From the NCBI RefSeq assembly GCF_900217235.1, contig NZ_LT907975.1:372001-436000 (forward strand): a DNA stretch of 64,000 nt, written 5' to 3'. Below are positions 56,414-63,648 of the stretch, piece by piece. This DNA comes from Pseudodesulfovibrio profundus (GTDB taxonomy: Bacteria; Desulfobacterota; Desulfovibrionia; Desulfovibrionales; Desulfovibrionaceae). The number at the start of each line of letters is the position of its first letter. Position 1 is the first letter of the stretch. The notes beneath the pieces were generated by a model. That model saw only the letters and a program-made list of their open reading frames with translations. It did no database searches and was not told the DNA's origin. A program made the translations under genes and the position numbers.

Positions 56414-56448
56414 CAAATAAAAAAGGGAGCCACCATGATGGCTCCCTT
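56414..56448 (-). terminator. Intrinsic terminator after the 275-aa gene
   Basis: AAGGGAGCCA/TGGCTCCCTT stem with a 6-base loop; T-rich tail on the minus strand. It ends the ECF-sigma-linked operon. Confidence 0.85.
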
Positions 56449-56469: not shown

Positions 56470-57297
56470 CTACTTTTTACCGCCGCCCTTTCCTTTGCCG
56501 CCACCCTTTCCATTGCCACCGGCATTACTGCCACCAGCCTTTCCAGAGCTCTTAGAGCTCTTGTCTGACTGAGCGTTTCCATTGTTACCACGGGAACCGC
56601 CTGGAGTTTTGGCTCTGCCGGTTTTCACATCACGCTTGGTAGAGCGAGACTTGGCCATGGACTTATTCATGCTCTTATTATTCTTTTGAGCACGAGCCTG
56701 CGTCTGCTTTTCCTTCTGCTTCATGTGGCCGAGTCCAAGAACACTCGGATGGACGCCCAGTTCATGAGCTATTTCACCCCAGCCCATACCAGACTCACGC
56801 ATTGAAGAGATTTCACTTGTATCGACAGATGCAGCATTGGCGATTGTTTGGTCAGCCTCCTCCTGGACGCTCTCCAGGTTGGCTACGGCTGCATCCAGTG
56901 CTTCTTGGGCAGCAGCCTGCTCTTCTTCAGTTGCATCTTCAGGGAGGCCATCAAGAGCTTCCTGAGCTTCAGTTACAGATTGCTCAGCCTCTGCAACGTC
57001 GGCTTCAGCCGCGTCAATTGCGGCCTGGTTTTCTTCTGCAGAAGCTTCGGCAGCTGCTGCTGCAAGATTTTCTGCCTTGGCAGCCTGAGCAGGGTTAGCA
57101 AATGAAGATTCTTCTCCAGTATCTTCACCCTCTTCCCCTTCTGTAGTCTCACCAGTACCCGGATCTGCTGGATCAGTCACTTGTGTGTCATCACCGACAG
57201 TCCCATCATCCGTTTGCGCGGAAGCAGATGGTACAATTATCAGACCTGCCAAAAGCAGGCAGCTCACCATGTATGTAACTTTTTTTATAATGTTCAT
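56470..57297 (-). CDS. Secreted low-complexity protein with acidic and basic halves (275 aa)
   Basis: Signal peptide ('MVSCLLLAGLIIVPSASAQ'). The first mature part is acidic (Asp/Glu/Thr/Gly), then an Ala/Glu coiled coil (about 75-155), then a short folded-looking motif 'SGMGWGEIAHELGVHPSVLG' (about 173-192). The end is basic, Ser/Lys/Gly-rich, closing with GGGKGKGGGKK. The 'GMGWGEIAHELGVHPS' motif recurs in secreted proteins of many proteobacteria. Function unknown. It is 19 bp after the TPR/OmpA-like lipoprotein gene and transcribed with it. Confidence 0.75.
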   Translation of the reverse strand: MNIIKKVTYMVSCLLLAGLIIVPSASAQTDDGTVGDDTQVTDPADPGTGETTEGEEGEDTGEESSFANPAQAAKAENLAAAAAEASAEENQAAIDAAEADVAEAEQSVTEAQEALDGLPEDATEEEQAAAQEALDAAVANLESVQEEADQTIANAASVDTSEISSMRESGMGWGEIAHELGVHPSVLGLGHMKQKEKQTQARAQKNNKSMNKSMAKSRSTKRDVKTGRAKTPGGSRGNNGNAQSDKSSKSSGKAGGSNAGGNGKGGGKGKGGGKK

Positions 57298-57316: not shown

Positions 57317-58273
57317 TCACTTAACTACTGTGATGAATTGTACTGATTGATCTACAGTCTGCGACTTCCCATCAACCGTTATTATTTCTGACGAACCAAA
57401 CCAACTCAAAGGCAGTCTTTTTTCTGAAGGAGCAGGATGACCATTTACAAGGTAATCACGAACTGCTTCTGAACGTGCTTTTGCCAATGACTTATTACCT
57501 TTAACATAAGTGACGATGTGCAGAGCCAGTTTGTCGTTGGTATTCATCATGGTTTTCAGCACTTGTAGCGAGTTCTTGCTTTCCGCTTTCAGATCAACAC
57601 TCCCCTCTTCAAAATTAATGCTTCGCAAAGGAACATTGCGCTCCCCGATGATGAAGTTCCGGTAGGTAAAATCACCAAGTACATTTAAACTTTGTGTAGC
57701 CTGAATAGCCAGACTTCCGTCCGGATAATACTCAAGGAACTTCTTCCAGGACTTCTTTGCCTCTACGCTTTTTCCCAGCTTGTTAAGGACTAACCCTTCA
57801 TTGAAAAGCGCTTCAGGATTATAAGGATCAATTTGAATCACCTTACGGTAACGAATAAGAGCTTGTTCCCATTTGCCTTTATCAAGGTAGCTATGTCCTA
57901 GATAGAGATTTGCTGAAACGTGATTTGGGTCAAGTGATATGGCTTTCTGGTACGCAGCACGCTCTTGCGGATAGTCAGCAAGCGCCCAATGGGCCACACC
58001 CTGCCAAAAAACATAGTCGGCGTTATCTGAATCCAAAGCCACAGCCTTATCCAAAAACTGCAATCCCTGGGCGGGTTTGTTCATCCCCAGATAATACCTG
58101 CCGATAAAGTATGCAGCAGAGGCATCATCCGGGTTTTCCTGAAGTTGCTCTCCCAAGACTTCAATGCCTTCAGCATATTTTTCCTGGTTGAGATAGTACG
58201 GTCCAACAACTTTAGAGCATCCTGTCAAAAAAAGAGCTCCCAGTACCATTGCCGATAATAAAACGCGTTTCAC
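57317..58273 (-). CDS. TPR lipoprotein with C-terminal OmpA-like domain
   Basis: 318 residues from GTG at 58273, chosen because GGAG lies 7 bases upstream and the protein then begins with a perfect lipoprotein signal ('VKRVLLSAMVLGALFLTGCS', Cys19). An ATG at 58363 would put 30 polar residues in front of it. TPR repeats span about 45-185 ('SAAYFIGRYYLGMNKPAQGL', 'HVSANLYLGHSYLDKGKWEQ'). The last ~110 residues ('INFEEGSVDLKAESKNSL', 'SLAKARSEAVRDYLV') resemble an OmpA-type peptidoglycan-binding domain, but degenerate. It has its own promoter-like element, the same as that upstream of the ECF sigma gene. Confidence 0.82.
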   Translation of the reverse strand: MKRVLLSAMVLGALFLTGCSKVVGPYYLNQEKYAEGIEVLGEQLQENPDDASAAYFIGRYYLGMNKPAQGLQFLDKAVALDSDNADYVFWQGVAHWALADYPQERAAYQKAISLDPNHVSANLYLGHSYLDKGKWEQALIRYRKVIQIDPYNPEALFNEGLVLNKLGKSVEAKKSWKKFLEYYPDGSLAIQATQSLNVLGDFTYRNFIIGERNVPLRSINFEEGSVDLKAESKNSLQVLKTMMNTNDKLALHIVTYVKGNKSLAKARSEAVRDYLVNGHPAPSEKRLPLSWFGSSEIITVDGKSQTVDQSVQFITVVK

Positions 58274-58317: not shown

Positions 58318-58345
58318 TATACGAAGCCAACAACCAACAGGTCAC
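58318..58345 (-). promoter_or_regulatory. Predicted ECF-sigma promoter of the lipoprotein gene
   Basis: On the minus strand: AAAAATGTGACCT (-35; GTGACC at 58340-58345), exactly 16 bp, then CGTATA (58318-58323). The same pair with identical spacing lies before the ECF sigma gene. Spacing of 16 with a CGTA -10 is what many ECF sigma factors use. The start codon is 45 bp downstream. Confidence 0.7.
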
Positions 58346-58366
58346 ATTTTTTAATACATCCATCCG

Positions 58367-59119
58367 TTATTTGCTTTGCCCTCGCATGTTGCGAAGAGTA
58401 AAGCCAAGTAAAGATGCCACATCATTGGGGCTACCTGAATTTTGAAGCCCTTTGATCGCCGCATCTTTGATTGCGAGATCGGAGATTCCCCTTTCTCTGG
58501 CAACAATAACAACCCGTATAAAGTAACGCCAGGACGGGGGTATTTGGGAAGCAATAGAGTATGAATCTACAATATCATTCACATACGATTGATTAAATCC
58601 ATATTGAACCAGATATGAAGCCATTTCCAACCCTATTGAAAATCGTGGTGCCTGAAGATCTTTGTGGCGATCAATGAAAGTCGAGAAAAACTCACCAGAG
58701 ACACCATTAACCAGGCCATCCCCTACAATTGTTAATAATTCAGGATCATCGTTATCTGTTCCAGCCTCAAGAATACTTTGCGCTTCAATATATTTTAAAC
58801 GCATCCGATCCATCACAACCACGATTTTTGAAGGGTGCACCTGCTTGCTCAACCCCTCAGTCAACTTCAACTCAAAAGGCCTTACAGGTAATCCATGGTT
58901 GCAGGCGTTAATTAGGGAAGCAAGCAAAGCTACCTTGTACTGTTCTTCTACTTCTGCATGTCCCTCGGATAATTTCAACTGCTCTATCAGATAGGGGGAA
59001 ATACCACATTCCAAAGCTTTTTCAGTTACTTCTCCAACCCATACATCGTCTGCCAATGCCAAGTTGGCAGGCATAAGGATGGAAAGCGAAAAGAATATCA
59101 ATTTAAAGATGTTGCTCAT
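58367..59119 (-). CDS. Secreted hypothetical protein in the ECF-sigma operon
   Basis: 250 residues from the ATG at 59119; a GTG at 59128 is the alternative. Signal peptide ('IFKLIFFSLSILMPANLALA'). The mature protein is helical, without metal- or cofactor-binding motifs ('KALECGISPYLIEQLKLSEG', 'FSTFIDRHKDLQAPRFSIGL'). No family recognised. Its start lies within the end of the anti-sigma-like gene, so they are translated together. Between it and the lipoprotein gene lies the internal promoter. Confidence 0.75.
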   Translation of the reverse strand: MSNIFKLIFFSLSILMPANLALADDVWVGEVTEKALECGISPYLIEQLKLSEGHAEVEEQYKVALLASLINACNHGLPVRPFELKLTEGLSKQVHPSKIVVVMDRMRLKYIEAQSILEAGTDNDDPELLTIVGDGLVNGVSGEFFSTFIDRHKDLQAPRFSIGLEMASYLVQYGFNQSYVNDIVDSYSIASQIPPSWRYFIRVVIVARERGISDLAIKDAAIKGLQNSGSPNDVASLLGFTLRNMRGQSK

Positions 59120-59669
59120 TACTATCACTTACAAGAATCATAGAATTTCGATTGCCGAACCCGTCATCACGAATCATTGGGGCACGTGGATCAAGCTGAA
59201 TTTTCTTTCCATCAATAAGGAAGCTGTACTCGTGATTACCGGGAGGTAACGATGATTCAAGAATCCAATAGCCAGCTTCCGCATCGTATCGCATGGACCC
59301 CCCTTCTGGTTTCCAATTATTGAATGAGCCAATAACAGAAACAGATCGAGCCTCCTTGGCTGGATCATTCATGATGAAACGTATGGCCGAAGACTGATCA
59401 TTTTTTGTACTATCTGCTCCCCAAATAAAACCAACCATAATTAGTATGACAGCAGCAGTTAAGCCTCCGGCTACTTTGGCAGGACTGAAGGAAACCGATA
59501 CAGGGTTGGTAAACCAACTTAATAGCTTCCGCCAAAAAGGAACCTTTTTCGGGGCCAGCTGCTGCATGACAGAACGGGTAAAATCAATTGGTGGCTCGGA
59601 TTCTGGCACTGACTTGATATAGTTTATTAATTCTGAATCATGAATATGATCATTGTGCTTATTGCTCAT
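59103..59669 (-). CDS. Membrane anti-sigma-like protein with C-terminal CBM48/E-set domain
   Basis: 188 residues from ATG 59669, six bases after GGAGG; the ATG at 59672 is only three bases away from it. Cytoplasmic N-terminus of ~65 residues ('SELINYIKSVPESEPPIDFT'), without the Zn-binding HxxxCxxC, one membrane helix (about 68-86: 'VAGGLTAAVILIMVGFIWG'), then a periplasmic domain of about 85 residues. 'VSVIGSFNNWKPEGGSMRYD' and 'YWILESSLPPGNHEYSFLID' are hallmarks of the glycogen-binding (AMPK-type/CBM48) E-set. Its gene overlaps that of the ECF sigma factor. An anti-sigma role is inferred from topology and context. Confidence 0.78.
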   Translation of the reverse strand: MSNKHNDHIHDSELINYIKSVPESEPPIDFTRSVMQQLAPKKVPFWRKLLSWFTNPVSVSFSPAKVAGGLTAAVILIMVGFIWGADSTKNDQSSAIRFIMNDPAKEARSVSVIGSFNNWKPEGGSMRYDAEAGYWILESSLPPGNHEYSFLIDGKKIQLDPRAPMIRDDGFGNRNSMILVSDSNEQHL

Positions 59670-60219
59670 CATTATCCTCCATCAGGCTGTCCTTTACCAT
59701 GTCTAACCCTCTGCGAACTCGCATTTTGGCACCGCTCAAACTAATCTCAAGTGTTGAAGCTACTTCTTTGAATGAGAAGCCATACTTAAACCTAAGGATT
59801 AACGCCTCCCTGTACTTGTGACCCAATCCCATAATTGTATCGAATGCCTTTGCGCCATCAAGCTGCTTGTCTGTTTGAGACTGACTAGTGCTGTCATCCG
59901 GGTGATAATTTATATCCATAGACTCAGGCACAATGACTTTTTGCTCTCTTCCTCTTTTACGAATCCAATCTCGTGCAATATTGAGAGCCAATGTATAGAG
60001 CCATGGGAAGAATCGCTTACTTTTATCAAATGATTCAAGCTTACCATATGCCTTGATGAATGCTTCCTGAGCAAGGTCTGAAGCCTCATCTGCATTTCCC
60101 GTGTACCGAAGCATTAGACTGTAAATAGCTCGCTGATGTTCGCGCACGAGTACACCAAAAGGGTCAGGATCCCCTTTTAGTACCTTGTTGATTATATCTT
60201 TTTCCCGATCCGAATTCAT
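59659..60219 (-). CDS. ECF-type RNA polymerase sigma factor (RpoE-like)
   Basis: 186 residues. Region 2 'YSLMLRYTGNADEASDLAQE' and 'FIKAYGKLESFDKSKRFFPW' (-10 recognition), and region 4 'RFKYGFSFKEVASTLEISLS' with 'AKMRVRRGLDMV' (-35 recognition). It lacks regions 1 and 3 as ECF factors do. Its 3' end overlaps the start of the anti-sigma-like gene. A promoter-like element 37-64 bp upstream of the start codon matches one before the lipoprotein gene, suggesting autoregulation. Confidence 0.93.
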   Translation of the reverse strand: MNSDREKDIINKVLKGDPDPFGVLVREHQRAIYSLMLRYTGNADEASDLAQEAFIKAYGKLESFDKSKRFFPWLYTLALNIARDWIRKRGREQKVIVPESMDINYHPDDSTSQSQTDKQLDGAKAFDTIMGLGHKYREALILRFKYGFSFKEVASTLEISLSGAKMRVRRGLDMVKDSLMEDNDEQ

Positions 60220-60255
60220 GAATCGATCTGCTTAGTGCTCATGGTTCTATTTAAT

Positions 60256-60283
60256 TATACGAACCAGAAGAAAAATAGGTCAC
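60256..60283 (-). promoter_or_regulatory. Predicted autoregulated promoter of the ECF sigma operon
   Basis: On the minus strand: AAAAATGTGACCT with GTGACC at 60278-60283, exactly 16 bp, then CGTATA at 60256-60261. It matches the element at 58318-58345 in both boxes and in spacing, while the spacer sequences differ, so it is not a recent duplication. Confidence 0.7.
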
Positions 60284-60516
60284 ATTTTTCATGCAGACAT
60301 TACTTAATGCTTGGAGGCTGGTTCTCGACTTTTAGCACAGCGATGGTCATATCATCCTTCTGTGGCGATACTCCACGGAAGTCTACAAGTTGACCTTTCA
60401 ATTTTTCAATGATTTCCTCTGCGCCCAGTCCTGCATTCTCTCTTATGAAGGCCACCAGACGTTCTTTCCCAAATAACTCACCATTCTCTGTGTAAAGTCC
60501 CCTTTCATAGGGCCAG

Positions 60517-61365
60517 TTAACGGTAGAGACTCCCGGCAGTTTTCGGGGGGTTGCCCAGAGGGTAGGGGGTACCCCCTGCCCTTTGGGCAGCAAAATTTAT
60601 CGGCGACATATTCCCCAGGGATTCATGAGGACGTTCCTCGTTGTACTCACGGATAAAGTCCTCCGTAATGGCCCGAACTTCGCTCAGGCTGTTGAACACG
60701 TACAAATCAAGCACTTCTTCTCTGTAGGTTCGGTTGAACCGCTCGATGTATGAGTTCTGGGTGGGTTTGCCAGGCTGAATGAACTCCAGATTCACGCCAT
60801 GCGATTCGGCCCAGGCCGCCATGACAGTCCCCGAGAACTCTGGACCATTGTCCATTCGCAACCTCTCGGGATAGCCGCCACGCTCTTCGGCTACCCGATC
60901 CAGCACCCTTACCACTCGTCCTGCTGGCATATTGGTATCGATCTCCACGGCCAAGGCCTCACGGTTGTAATCATCTACAGCGTTGAAAGTCCTGAAGACG
61001 CGACCGCTGTAAAGCGTGTCCCGCATGAAATCTATCGACCAGCAATAGTTTGGCGCAAGCGGTTGGGCCACTGCCGTCCGAGAGGCTTGCGGAAGCCGCT
61101 TCTTGGCCTTGCGCTTCAGGTTCATTTTCAAGAGGCAGTAAACCCTCCAGACCTTCTTGTGGTTCCAGGGCTTGTCCTGCTGTCGAAGGACGTTGAAAAG
61201 CTTACTGAAGCCCCATGTAGGCTTTTTCTCGGCCAGTTCAGTCAAGGCTGCGATGACATCGCTGTCGTCCCGCGGATGCGGCTTGTAGGCGTAGTAGCTC
61301 CTACTGATGCCCATGGCCGCGCATGCCTTGCGCAAGCTCAACTCAAACGCGTTGACCATGTGCAT
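60517..61365 (-). CDS. IS3-family transposase OrfB
   Basis: 282 residues with the integrase core: 'CWSIDFMRDTLYSG' (D), 'RLRMDNGPEFSGTV' (D) and 'NSYIERFNRTYREEVLD' (E). It is in the -1 frame relative to OrfA. The frame is open upstream of the ATG through 'TLRPVQRKEFVMHM', linking it to the slippery site. Confidence 0.95.
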   Translation of the reverse strand: MHMVNAFELSLRKACAAMGISRSYYAYKPHPRDDSDVIAALTELAEKKPTWGFSKLFNVLRQQDKPWNHKKVWRVYCLLKMNLKRKAKKRLPQASRTAVAQPLAPNYCWSIDFMRDTLYSGRVFRTFNAVDDYNREALAVEIDTNMPAGRVVRVLDRVAEERGGYPERLRMDNGPEFSGTVMAAWAESHGVNLEFIQPGKPTQNSYIERFNRTYREEVLDLYVFNSLSEVRAITEDFIREYNEERPHESLGNMSPINFAAQRAGGTPYPLGNPPKTAGSLYR

Positions 61366-61391
61366 GACAAATTCCTTGCGTTGAACTGGCC

Positions 61392-61703
61392 TCAGAGTTT
61401 TTTTTCGATCACATCCTTGAGCGCCATGTTTTCCAGGCTGAGGTCGGCGAACATCTGCTTGAGCTTACGGTTCTCCGTTTCGAGATCCTTCATCCGTTGG
61501 ATATCGGATGCCTCCATGCCGCCATACTTTGACTTCCACTTGTAGTACGTGGCGCTGCTCACGCCGTGCTCGCGGCAGACATCGACGACAGTTCGTCCGC
61601 CTTCCACTGCCTTCAGGATCTTGACGATCTGGTACTCGCTGAACTTCGATTTACGCATGCAAAACTCCTGTCCCATTTTGGGCCAGAAGTCTCTACTTGG
61701 CAA
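61392..61703 (-). CDS. IS3-family transposase OrfA with programmed frameshift site
   Basis: 103 residues: HTH ('TVVDVCREHGVSSATYYKWK') and leucine zipper ('RMKDLETENRKLKQMFADLS'). The gene ends GAA AAA AAA CTC TGA on the minus strand: a run of eight A (61398-61405) just before the stop allows a -1 shift into OrfB and production of the OrfAB transposase. Confidence 0.94.
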   Translation of the reverse strand: MPSRDFWPKMGQEFCMRKSKFSEYQIVKILKAVEGGRTVVDVCREHGVSSATYYKWKSKYGGMEASDIQRMKDLETENRKLKQMFADLSLENMALKDVIEKKL

Positions 61704-63648
61704 TGGACCTACTTTACGGGGACTTTACATCTGAAGTGGATTCCCAAATGCCGTCTGTGCCTATAATGATGATTTGCCCAGGCTTAAAACCACTGATTGC
61801 ACCAGATTCATAGTCTCCACCAGAGAGAACTCCCAGTGGCAGCCCCTGACCAGTCAGTTCATCAAATTGATCGGTTTGAGGATCATAGAGTAATGCCGGA
61901 TCATGTCCTGCACGCACCCAGTTGGCTGAACCATCTTCAAACAACTCAAGGGCAAACAACGTCATAAATCGCCCGGTTTCATCCAAATCTTCAGCCATGA
62001 GATCGTTAACGGCCGTTACAGCCTCTGCGAGAGGTTTGCCGCTCGTTATCTGGCTCCGTAAATAGGCACGAGCCGAAGCCATCATCAGTGCAGCCTGAAA
62101 ACCATGACCGCTGACATCTCCAACTCCAACAACCAATGACTTGGTCCCATTCATGGTACGGGGTATGAACCCATAATAGTCGCCACCGGTTTCATCGCAG
62201 TACGAACTTGAAGCTGCAATATCCAAAGAGAAAAATGTGGGATTTTCTGAGGGAAGCAAGTTCTGTTGAACCTCTTGGGCAACCTCAAGATGATTCTTCA
62301 TTGCCACACGTTCCTGGAGCTCGGGAACCATCTTGTTTACTGCGGCTGCAAGTTGGCCAATCTCATCAGAAGATCGAACTTGTGCTCTGACCAAAAAATT
62401 TCCTTTGGCAACACTCTTAACTGTATCAACGAGAATACTGATATTTTGAGTAAACAGTTTTGCAAGCAGCATGGAAATCAAAACGACGAAAATAGCGACA
62501 CCGAAGACTATTAAACTAATTTTTCCATTATGCTCATCTACCTGAGAAACAACATATTCTCGTGCAGTCTGGGCCTCACTGACAATATCCTGCCTAGGAA
62601 CCACCAATAATAAAGAAAGCCCATTCTCCTGAATAGGAGCATAAGCCCAAAGAGCGTCCCCTGAACTGTCAGGCATTCCGACGACACCGGCTCTTCCCTT
62701 TTCAATATTATTTACCATTATAGAGTACTGTTCCATATCGGTAGGATTGAGCCATTGCTCGCGATCAGACATCTGCCAATGCCGCATCTCATCACTTTGA
62801 GCTAATTGTTGAGCAACAATACGTAAGCTGTTGTTTTGTTGGCTTTGATTAGCAGCCGGACGAACCAAATACGACTGAAAGCCTTCTGAGTACATCTGCA
62901 CATGGGAGTTCTTGTGCAAAACTGCGTCTACGGGGATTACTATTGAAAGCCTCCCCTGCACTTCGCCCATTTCATTCCTTATCAATGACGTAAAACGAAA
63001 ACTCATCTTTCCTGTAAAAGAGTCAACTTCCGACAGTGTCCATCCTAATGCGTTATTAGACACATTTGCCCCCGATCGCATCCTCGACTGTCGCATCATC
63101 CGCTTGGATTGCAATTTCGGATACGAGATATCAGTCCCCTCCTGGAGTGACATTTCGATCCATAAGATCAGTTTTGGGTAATTTGTTTTCACATCCCTGA
63201 AAATTGAAGCGAGATTCTCTGCCATGTCAGGTTGTATGGTCCCTTTATCAAGGGTAATATCATTGAAATCCACATGTAAAAGCTGCTGGCGCCCCCCCAT
63301 ATGCATAAACGAGTAATCCGCCAACATTTCCTTGCTAAGCACTTCATTCAAGTCCAACGAGTCGTTGTCCACAATGTGTGAATGTCCATACAACACCCCC
63401 TCGACCTTTGACGCCATTAGTAGAGAAATTGATTCCAGGAGCTGCCGTTCACGCCCAAGTACTCGCGCATAATCCTCAACTATACGCTGCAAACTGTTAC
63501 TTGCTTTGTGAACTAGAACATTTTCGCTTCTCTCGGCTAACTTATCCCCCATATTGAGGATATCCCTTTCCACAACTGCACGAACCAACAATAGCGGGAT
63601 TAGAGAGATAAACATTAACAAAACAAGTAATTTAAATCTAAAAAGCAT

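Follow-up and report, generated by a model that had tools for sequence, protein, structure and literature searches.

Two conserved, probably ECF-type promoters in the operon of an ECF sigma factor from Pseudodesulfovibrio profundus and its relatives

The operon of an ECF sigma factor in Pseudodesulfovibrio profundus contains two matching pairs of boxes, one before the sigma factor gene (P1) and the other inside the operon (P2), which are very probably promoters of the ECF type, recognised by the sigma factor whose gene directly follows P1, so that the operon would be self-activating. The boxes themselves, strictly conserved around free spacers and placed ahead of gene starts, and the kept gene order can be read from the sequences of this organism and its relatives, and it is the comparison with the relatives that is decisive for regarding both places as putative promoters. 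The initial annotation of the analysed stretch of DNA (64,000 nucleotides, hereafter the window) had proposed that the sigma factor drives its own operon and, from an internal site, the genes at its end; the P1 and P2 elements conserved in relatives support this proposal, while the strictly defined regulon of this genome is limited to the one operon.

The two box pairs and the operon of P. profundus

The string AAAAATGTGACCT is found at both the P1 and the P2 place on the minus strand, and direct reading of the coordinates (Table 1) agrees with the earlier claim that GTGACC is followed by CGTATA after exactly 16 nt at two places. Within the window, GTGACC-N15-17-CGTA occurs twice, against 0.10 occurrences expected, and none of 100 shuffles of the window contained two or more. 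In the whole genome (4,217,908 bases, 3 contigs) the exact pattern GTGACC-N16-CGTATA occurs only twice, both times in the operon, and the reversed control pattern has no occurrence in the three contigs. The genome-wide search recommended by the initial annotation thus recovers both operon sites and adds no further gene: by strict criteria, this operon is the whole regulon of the genome. No wider strict regulon was found, and the single place with one mismatch lies inside an ORF (L219); a search with two mismatches is uninformative, because the reversed control gives more matches than the motif (72 vs 44).

Table 1. Features of the operon in window coordinates
Feature	Positions	Strand	Details
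P1, putative ECF-type promoter	60256..60283	-	-35 GTGACC 60283-60278, 16-nt spacer, -10 CGTATA 60261-60256
ECF sigma factor, 186 aa	59659..60219	-	Sigma70_r2 3.9e-19, Sigma70_r4_2 5.3e-07; sigma70-ECF 84.2 bits vs cut-off 42.9
Presumed anti-sigma factor	59103..59672	-	AMPK1_CBM 8.1e-11; helical N-terminal part, hydrophobic helix ~64-85, C-terminal AMPK/CBM48-like beta domain
P3 protein, unknown family	58367..59128	-	Signal-like N-terminus; all-helical model
P2, putative internal ECF-type promoter	58318..58345	-	-35 GTGACC 58345-58340, 16-nt spacer, -10 CGTATA 58323-58318
TPR/OmpA-like lipoprotein, 318 aa from GTG 58273	57317..58273	-	TPR families and OmpA 1.4e-06
Low-complexity, signal-bearing protein	56470..57297	-	Conserved MRxxGMGWGxIAxxLGVHP block; same-operon orthologues
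Terminator-like hairpin and T run after last gene	56423..56448	-	11 pairs

P1 precedes the sigma factor gene, and P2 is located between the third gene and the probable start of the lipoprotein gene. In the ORF list the TPR/OmpA gene begins at ATG 58363, on the upstream side of P2; the true start is very probably GTG 58273, 44 nt past the P2 -10 box, which has GGAG in front of it, at which a lipoprotein-like signal (VKRVLLSAMVLGALFLTGC) with a lipobox begins, and from which the product has the length called for many orthologues. With this start, P2 is therefore intergenic. The sigma factor consists of sigma2 and sigma4 domains only, which is the ECF domain layout, at a size close to the typical one of about 190 aa. 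Its best NCBIfam scores, for SigW (106.9 bits) and SigY (99 bits), are below the cut-offs of these families (209 and 194, respectively), and its nearest PDB chain is SigW 5wuq (4.6e-22). No Pfam or NCBIfam family was found for the P3 protein, nor was any Pfam match consistent among 28 of its orthologues; its model is confident (pLDDT 89.4), and no PDB fold matches it with E < 0.001. The low-complexity protein matches no Pfam or NCBIfam family over the cut-off. The hairpin listed after the last gene is one of five terminator-like sites in the region, where 3.5 are expected from shuffles.

As to the surroundings of the operon, a gene for a HAMP/SpoIIE-type phosphatase just upstream of P1 is interrupted, with its body at 61714-63648 and its SpoIIE tail at 60300-60593 (minus strand; window 60300-63648), and we take the frames that split it to be an IS3-type element. 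The genome also encodes dsrA (599 bits vs a cut-off of 392.85).

Conservation of the promoters at orthologous operons

Matches to the membrane protein encoded by the second gene were found in 40 of 98 related genomes, including that of the window and 28 of the 35 other members of the genus, and 36 neighbourhoods outside the window's genome were compared, giving 37 loci with the window. All five operon genes are present in 34 of the 36 relatives' loci. Two loci (L067 and L068) are without the fourth and fifth genes, one (L061) has the fifth gene upstream, and two others (L057 and L060) have the final two genes in exchanged order, the inner site still preceding the first of them. The two-box score of P1 is at least 11/12 in 36 of the 37 loci, the exception being L061 (7/12), and P2 reaches the same level in 32 of the 35 loci where a next gene could be tested; it falls short at L038 (10/12), L061 (9/12) and L064 (7/12 within the region tested, though a perfect site is present 18 nt inside the called gene start). 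When only the genus is counted, P1 reaches 11/12 or more in all 29 operon-bearing members, and P2 does so in 28 of 29. None of 60 shuffles per region reached the observed score, save at P1 of L061 and at P2 of L038, L061 and L064. The initial annotation had staked its reading on the presence of the motif upstream of orthologous operons, and this is indeed where the motif stands.

In the footprint of P1 (26 genus sequences), the -35 box has 1.96, the -10 box 1.88 and the spacer 0.40 bits per column; in that of P2 (25 genus sequences), the corresponding values are 2.00, 1.66 and 0.29. The boxes are near-invariant and the spacers close to free, as anticipated by the earlier suggestion that selection keeps the boxes alike while the spacers differ. 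Coding constraint was rejected as the source of this conservation, since P2 sits past the stop of the P3 gene and before the probable lipoprotein start. A T precedes GTGACC in 25 of 26 P1 and in all 25 P2 sequences, and a T after GTATA is kept at P2 in 24 of 25. CGTATA begins with C in 24 of 26 P1 sequences, but its first position is free at P2 (12 G, 6 C, 4 A and 3 T). The core shared by the two putative promoters is TGTGACC-N17-GTATA. The element as first described has to be trimmed accordingly: the AAAAA run is not conserved among the relatives, the trailing T falls outside the shared core, and of CGTATA as the common -10 box only GTATA holds for P1 and P2 alike, the C being free at P2.

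Two other explanations were weighed. P1 and P2 could be ordinary sigma-70 promoters of the forms GTGACC-N18-TATAAT and GTGACC-N18-TATATT that resemble each other by chance, and a scan with the sigma-70 consensus does pick up the two of them in P. profundus (10/12 and 9/12). However, only 8 of 29 P1 and 12 of 29 P2 loci of the genus pass in the same register, a T ends the sigma-70 hexamer in 8/29 P1 and 12/29 P2, and the letters that are kept are GTGACC and GTATA rather than the TTGACA and TATAAT of sigma-70, which makes this explanation very unlikely, although some basal use of P1 and P2 by sigma-70 may occur in this genome. TTGTGA resembles a half site of CRP-type regulators. GTGACC might in this way belong to one half of a CRP/FNR (HcpR-type) operator, TTGTGA-N6-TCACAA, and HcpR is predicted in Desulfovibrio in the portion of the report available to us (PMC545781); yet a right half with at least 5/6 matches at N4-N8 is seen at none of the 29 P1 and none of the 29 P2 loci, and the palindrome would leave the fixed GTATA at 17 nt unexplained, so that we give the operator hardly any credence. 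Both the sigma-70 and the CRP/HcpR explanations were rejected on these counts in the relatives.

If P1 is read as an ECF-type promoter, transcription would be expected to start ~7-8 nt past its -10 box. In most genus loci, GCAGATGAGT or a near variant is found at this distance, where the start is expected. Examples of such P1 leaders are L036:5390-5449 and L039:5350-5411. The tetramer GCAG occurs within 62 nt in 27 of 29 genus loci, and the GCAG of the P1 leader is located further downstream in this genome than in most genus loci. No consensus RNA structure was found in either leader alignment; among single leaders, 8 of 22 have z < -1.

Matches elsewhere in the genus and beyond

The core TGTGACC-N17-GTATA has 63 matches in 36 genomes of the genus, against none for the reversed control. 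Manual comparison with the operon positions assigns 51 of them to P1 or P2 (28 genomes) and 12 to other places. The form TGTGACC-N15-17-CGTATA gave 32 matches, and 2 control matches, in 37 relatives. Five of the 12 outside sites precede the gene of an NtrC-type response regulator that is divergent from TadE-like genes (G009, G014, G018, G019 and G031), and a 10/11 near-match stands at the same Tad-side offset in seven more genomes (G022, G024, G025, G028, G032, G034 and G035), in a scan covering 30 of the 35 genomes in which TadE is matched. If scores from 10/11 upwards and the exact sites of G009 and G031 are counted, 11 of the 27 operon-bearing genomes examined have a Tad-side site, compared with 1 of 5 lacking the operon. 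The NtrC/Tad locus of the present genome (L230) is without a proper motif match. A second block, TCTATTTTTTGTGGAT or a near variant, is seen in the TadE/NtrC intergenic region of 23 of 30 loci, ~183-209 nt from the TadE match (L222-L251). Of the remaining seven outside sites, three are in G022, where they precede a paralogue of the operon's last gene, another ORF and a short frame that resembles a lipoprotein by eye; one each precedes a response-regulator-like frame read by eye (G006) and a PA2779-family protein (G026; 2.6e-39), and no clear gene was found behind the sites of G016 and G020. Distant paralogues of the last gene share the block GMGWGxIAxxxGVHP (L298, at G000:C1:1283125-1283244, and L299-L302). 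Among them only the G022 copy (L300) carries the motif; none was found upstream of the paralogue in this genome.

In the seven genus genomes without the operon, no match to the membrane protein was found and lipoprotein matches are at most 38.4 bits; G009 and G016 carry a motif site though the operon was not found there. With 10 outside sites in 29 genomes with the operon and 2 in 7 without it, the idea that these sites track the operon was rejected; they are no commoner where it is present, and therefore are by themselves no proof that this sigma factor reads them. The sites in the two operon-free genomes and the near-equal frequencies would also fit an arrangement in which P1 and P2 serve another ECF-type sigma factor or some other regulator, the neighbouring sigma factor reading something else, and this genome has one more ECF-sized gene (L316) as well as two 212-aa sigma-like frames. 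But the motif stands before this sigma factor gene in 36 of 37 loci, and the six other sigma-type genes of this genome score 7-8 of 11 at best in the 450 nt tested, compared with 11 for this one (with the large factors L312-L314 this stretch overlaps the gene in part or in full, so that for them only the whole-genome exact search counts), and we consider such an arrangement unlikely. The two 212-residue frames (L317, G000:C1:558269-558775; L318, G000:C1:470109-470624) are near-identical and are perhaps carried on duplicated mobile elements.

Recognition of both promoters by the sigma factor encoded after P1 thus remains the preferred reading, and the motif can be followed outside the genus. 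In a survey of the phylum, the membrane-protein profile finds matches in 103 of 395 genomes at E ≤1e-10, many of these matches covering the CBM part only. We examined 29 further loci; 17 of them, in other families, have a sigma factor match and a usable upstream region, the upstream scores of L265 and L266 being left out because they are artefacts of a locus edge. The upstream score is 11/11 in G155 and 10/11 in G147, G468, G393, G373 and G341, six loci at which 0-3 of 100 shuffles reach the score, and it is only 6-9 of 11 at the other 11 loci. From these proportions (6/17 vs 11/17), the predicted promoter is found outside the order as well, though relatives of the domain do not all have it. 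A second CBM-type frame is present just upstream of the sigma factor gene promoter in four genomes of other families (L307, L309, L310 and L311).

The membrane protein and the proposed circuit

In the model of the second gene product (pLDDT 82.3, pTM 0.51), a helical N-terminal part is followed by a single long hydrophobic helix and then by a beta domain. The next-gene position, the cytoplasmic part, the single hydrophobic helix (read in the sequence and the model) and the outer domain are the layout of membrane anti-sigma factors, and we presume that the protein acts as one. No Pfam anti-sigma family was recognised in 26 members at E up to 1, and the anti-sigma role therefore rests on position and layout. 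AMPK1_CBM is matched by all 26 members, and the beta domain matches AMPK beta by fold and by sequence. Trp120 and Asn176 are invariant in the 26 members and are aligned with a W and an N of AMPK beta, presumably residues that stack against sugar in the AMPK domain; opposite the second Trp of AMPK, the alignment shows no Trp. A glycan is a possible signal for this AMPK/CBM48-like, periplasmic domain.

The circuit that we infer, including the binding of the sigma factor, the start sites, the anti-sigma action and the signal, would be as follows. At rest, the second gene product, as a single-pass membrane protein, would hold the sigma factor, which a signal at the periplasmic domain would release. 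The free sigma factor would then act on P1, resulting in more sigma factor, anti-sigma factor and P3 protein and hence in positive feedback, and on P2, resulting in extra transcripts that run to the terminator and encode the TPR/OmpA lipoprotein and the low-complexity protein.

Several known systems share parts of this arrangement. The SigW promoter is TGAAAC-N16-CGTA. In systems of the RpoE/SigW type, the sigma factor and its anti-sigma factor share one operon, as the sigma factor and the anti-sigma candidate do here; the present operon differs from them in its -35 box (GTGACC), in the AMPK/CBM48-like sensor domain and in the second conserved promoter inside the operon. Clostridial anti-sigma factors of the RsgI type bear carbohydrate-binding modules, and SigI is not an ECF factor. 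According to the available part of one report (PMC12203970), RsgI proteins are, like the candidate here, single-pass anti-sigma factors, which sense outside substrates and whose sigma factor is freed after proteolysis; unlike it, they have other outer modules and belong to Gram-positive bacteria, and sugar binding is only a candidate property here. Since about 55% of ECF factors are autoregulated, as given in the accessible text of a review (PMC8103513), the logic of self-activation is ordinary. In the accessible portions of two sources, AAC in the -35 box and CGT in the -10 box are typical of ECF promoters but not universal (PMC3426412, PMC8103513); P1 and P2 have GAC, not AAC, in the -35 box, and CGT is present in the -10 box of P1, its C being free at P2. 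Among the literature examined, the nearest published promoter type is that of ECF41, given as TGTCACA-N16-CGTC in the portion at hand (PMC3426412), which likewise combines a -35 box without AAC, a 16 ± 1 nt spacer and a CGT-type -10 box, and which is described there as serving a single target transcript, with promoter copies before the sigma factor gene and the target gene. ECF41 differs in the letters of both boxes, in a fused C-terminal regulatory extension and in its metabolic-type partner genes; in the present operon the sigma factor gene is followed by a membrane anti-sigma candidate and by envelope genes. One TGTGACC with a different -10 box appears in a Streptomyces SigE target, in the excerpt available (PMC6767563). 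No paper was found in a literature search for anti-sigma factors that carry a domain of the glycogen-binding or isoamylase type, and the group of this sigma factor may already be part of the 2021 ECF classification.

A further, tentative idea, to which we attach rather low confidence, is that this Gram-negative system corresponds to the glycan-sensing sigma systems of clostridia: its AMPK-type domain would read a periplasmic polysaccharide, and its two-promoter loop would raise the lipoprotein and the surface or matrix protein more strongly than the regulator, reaching the Tad pilus region in some relatives. None of the papers listed in the literature searches is a dedicated study of such an ECF system, for which the core described here would provide a sharp promoter code. 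The operon would also connect a probable sigma switch with an AMPK/CBM48-like domain, and the -35 box without AAC is an extra case for the sigma4 recognition code. Finally, the 51 operon sites in 28 genomes, together with the gains at other genes, may serve as a natural series for the growth of an ECF regulon.
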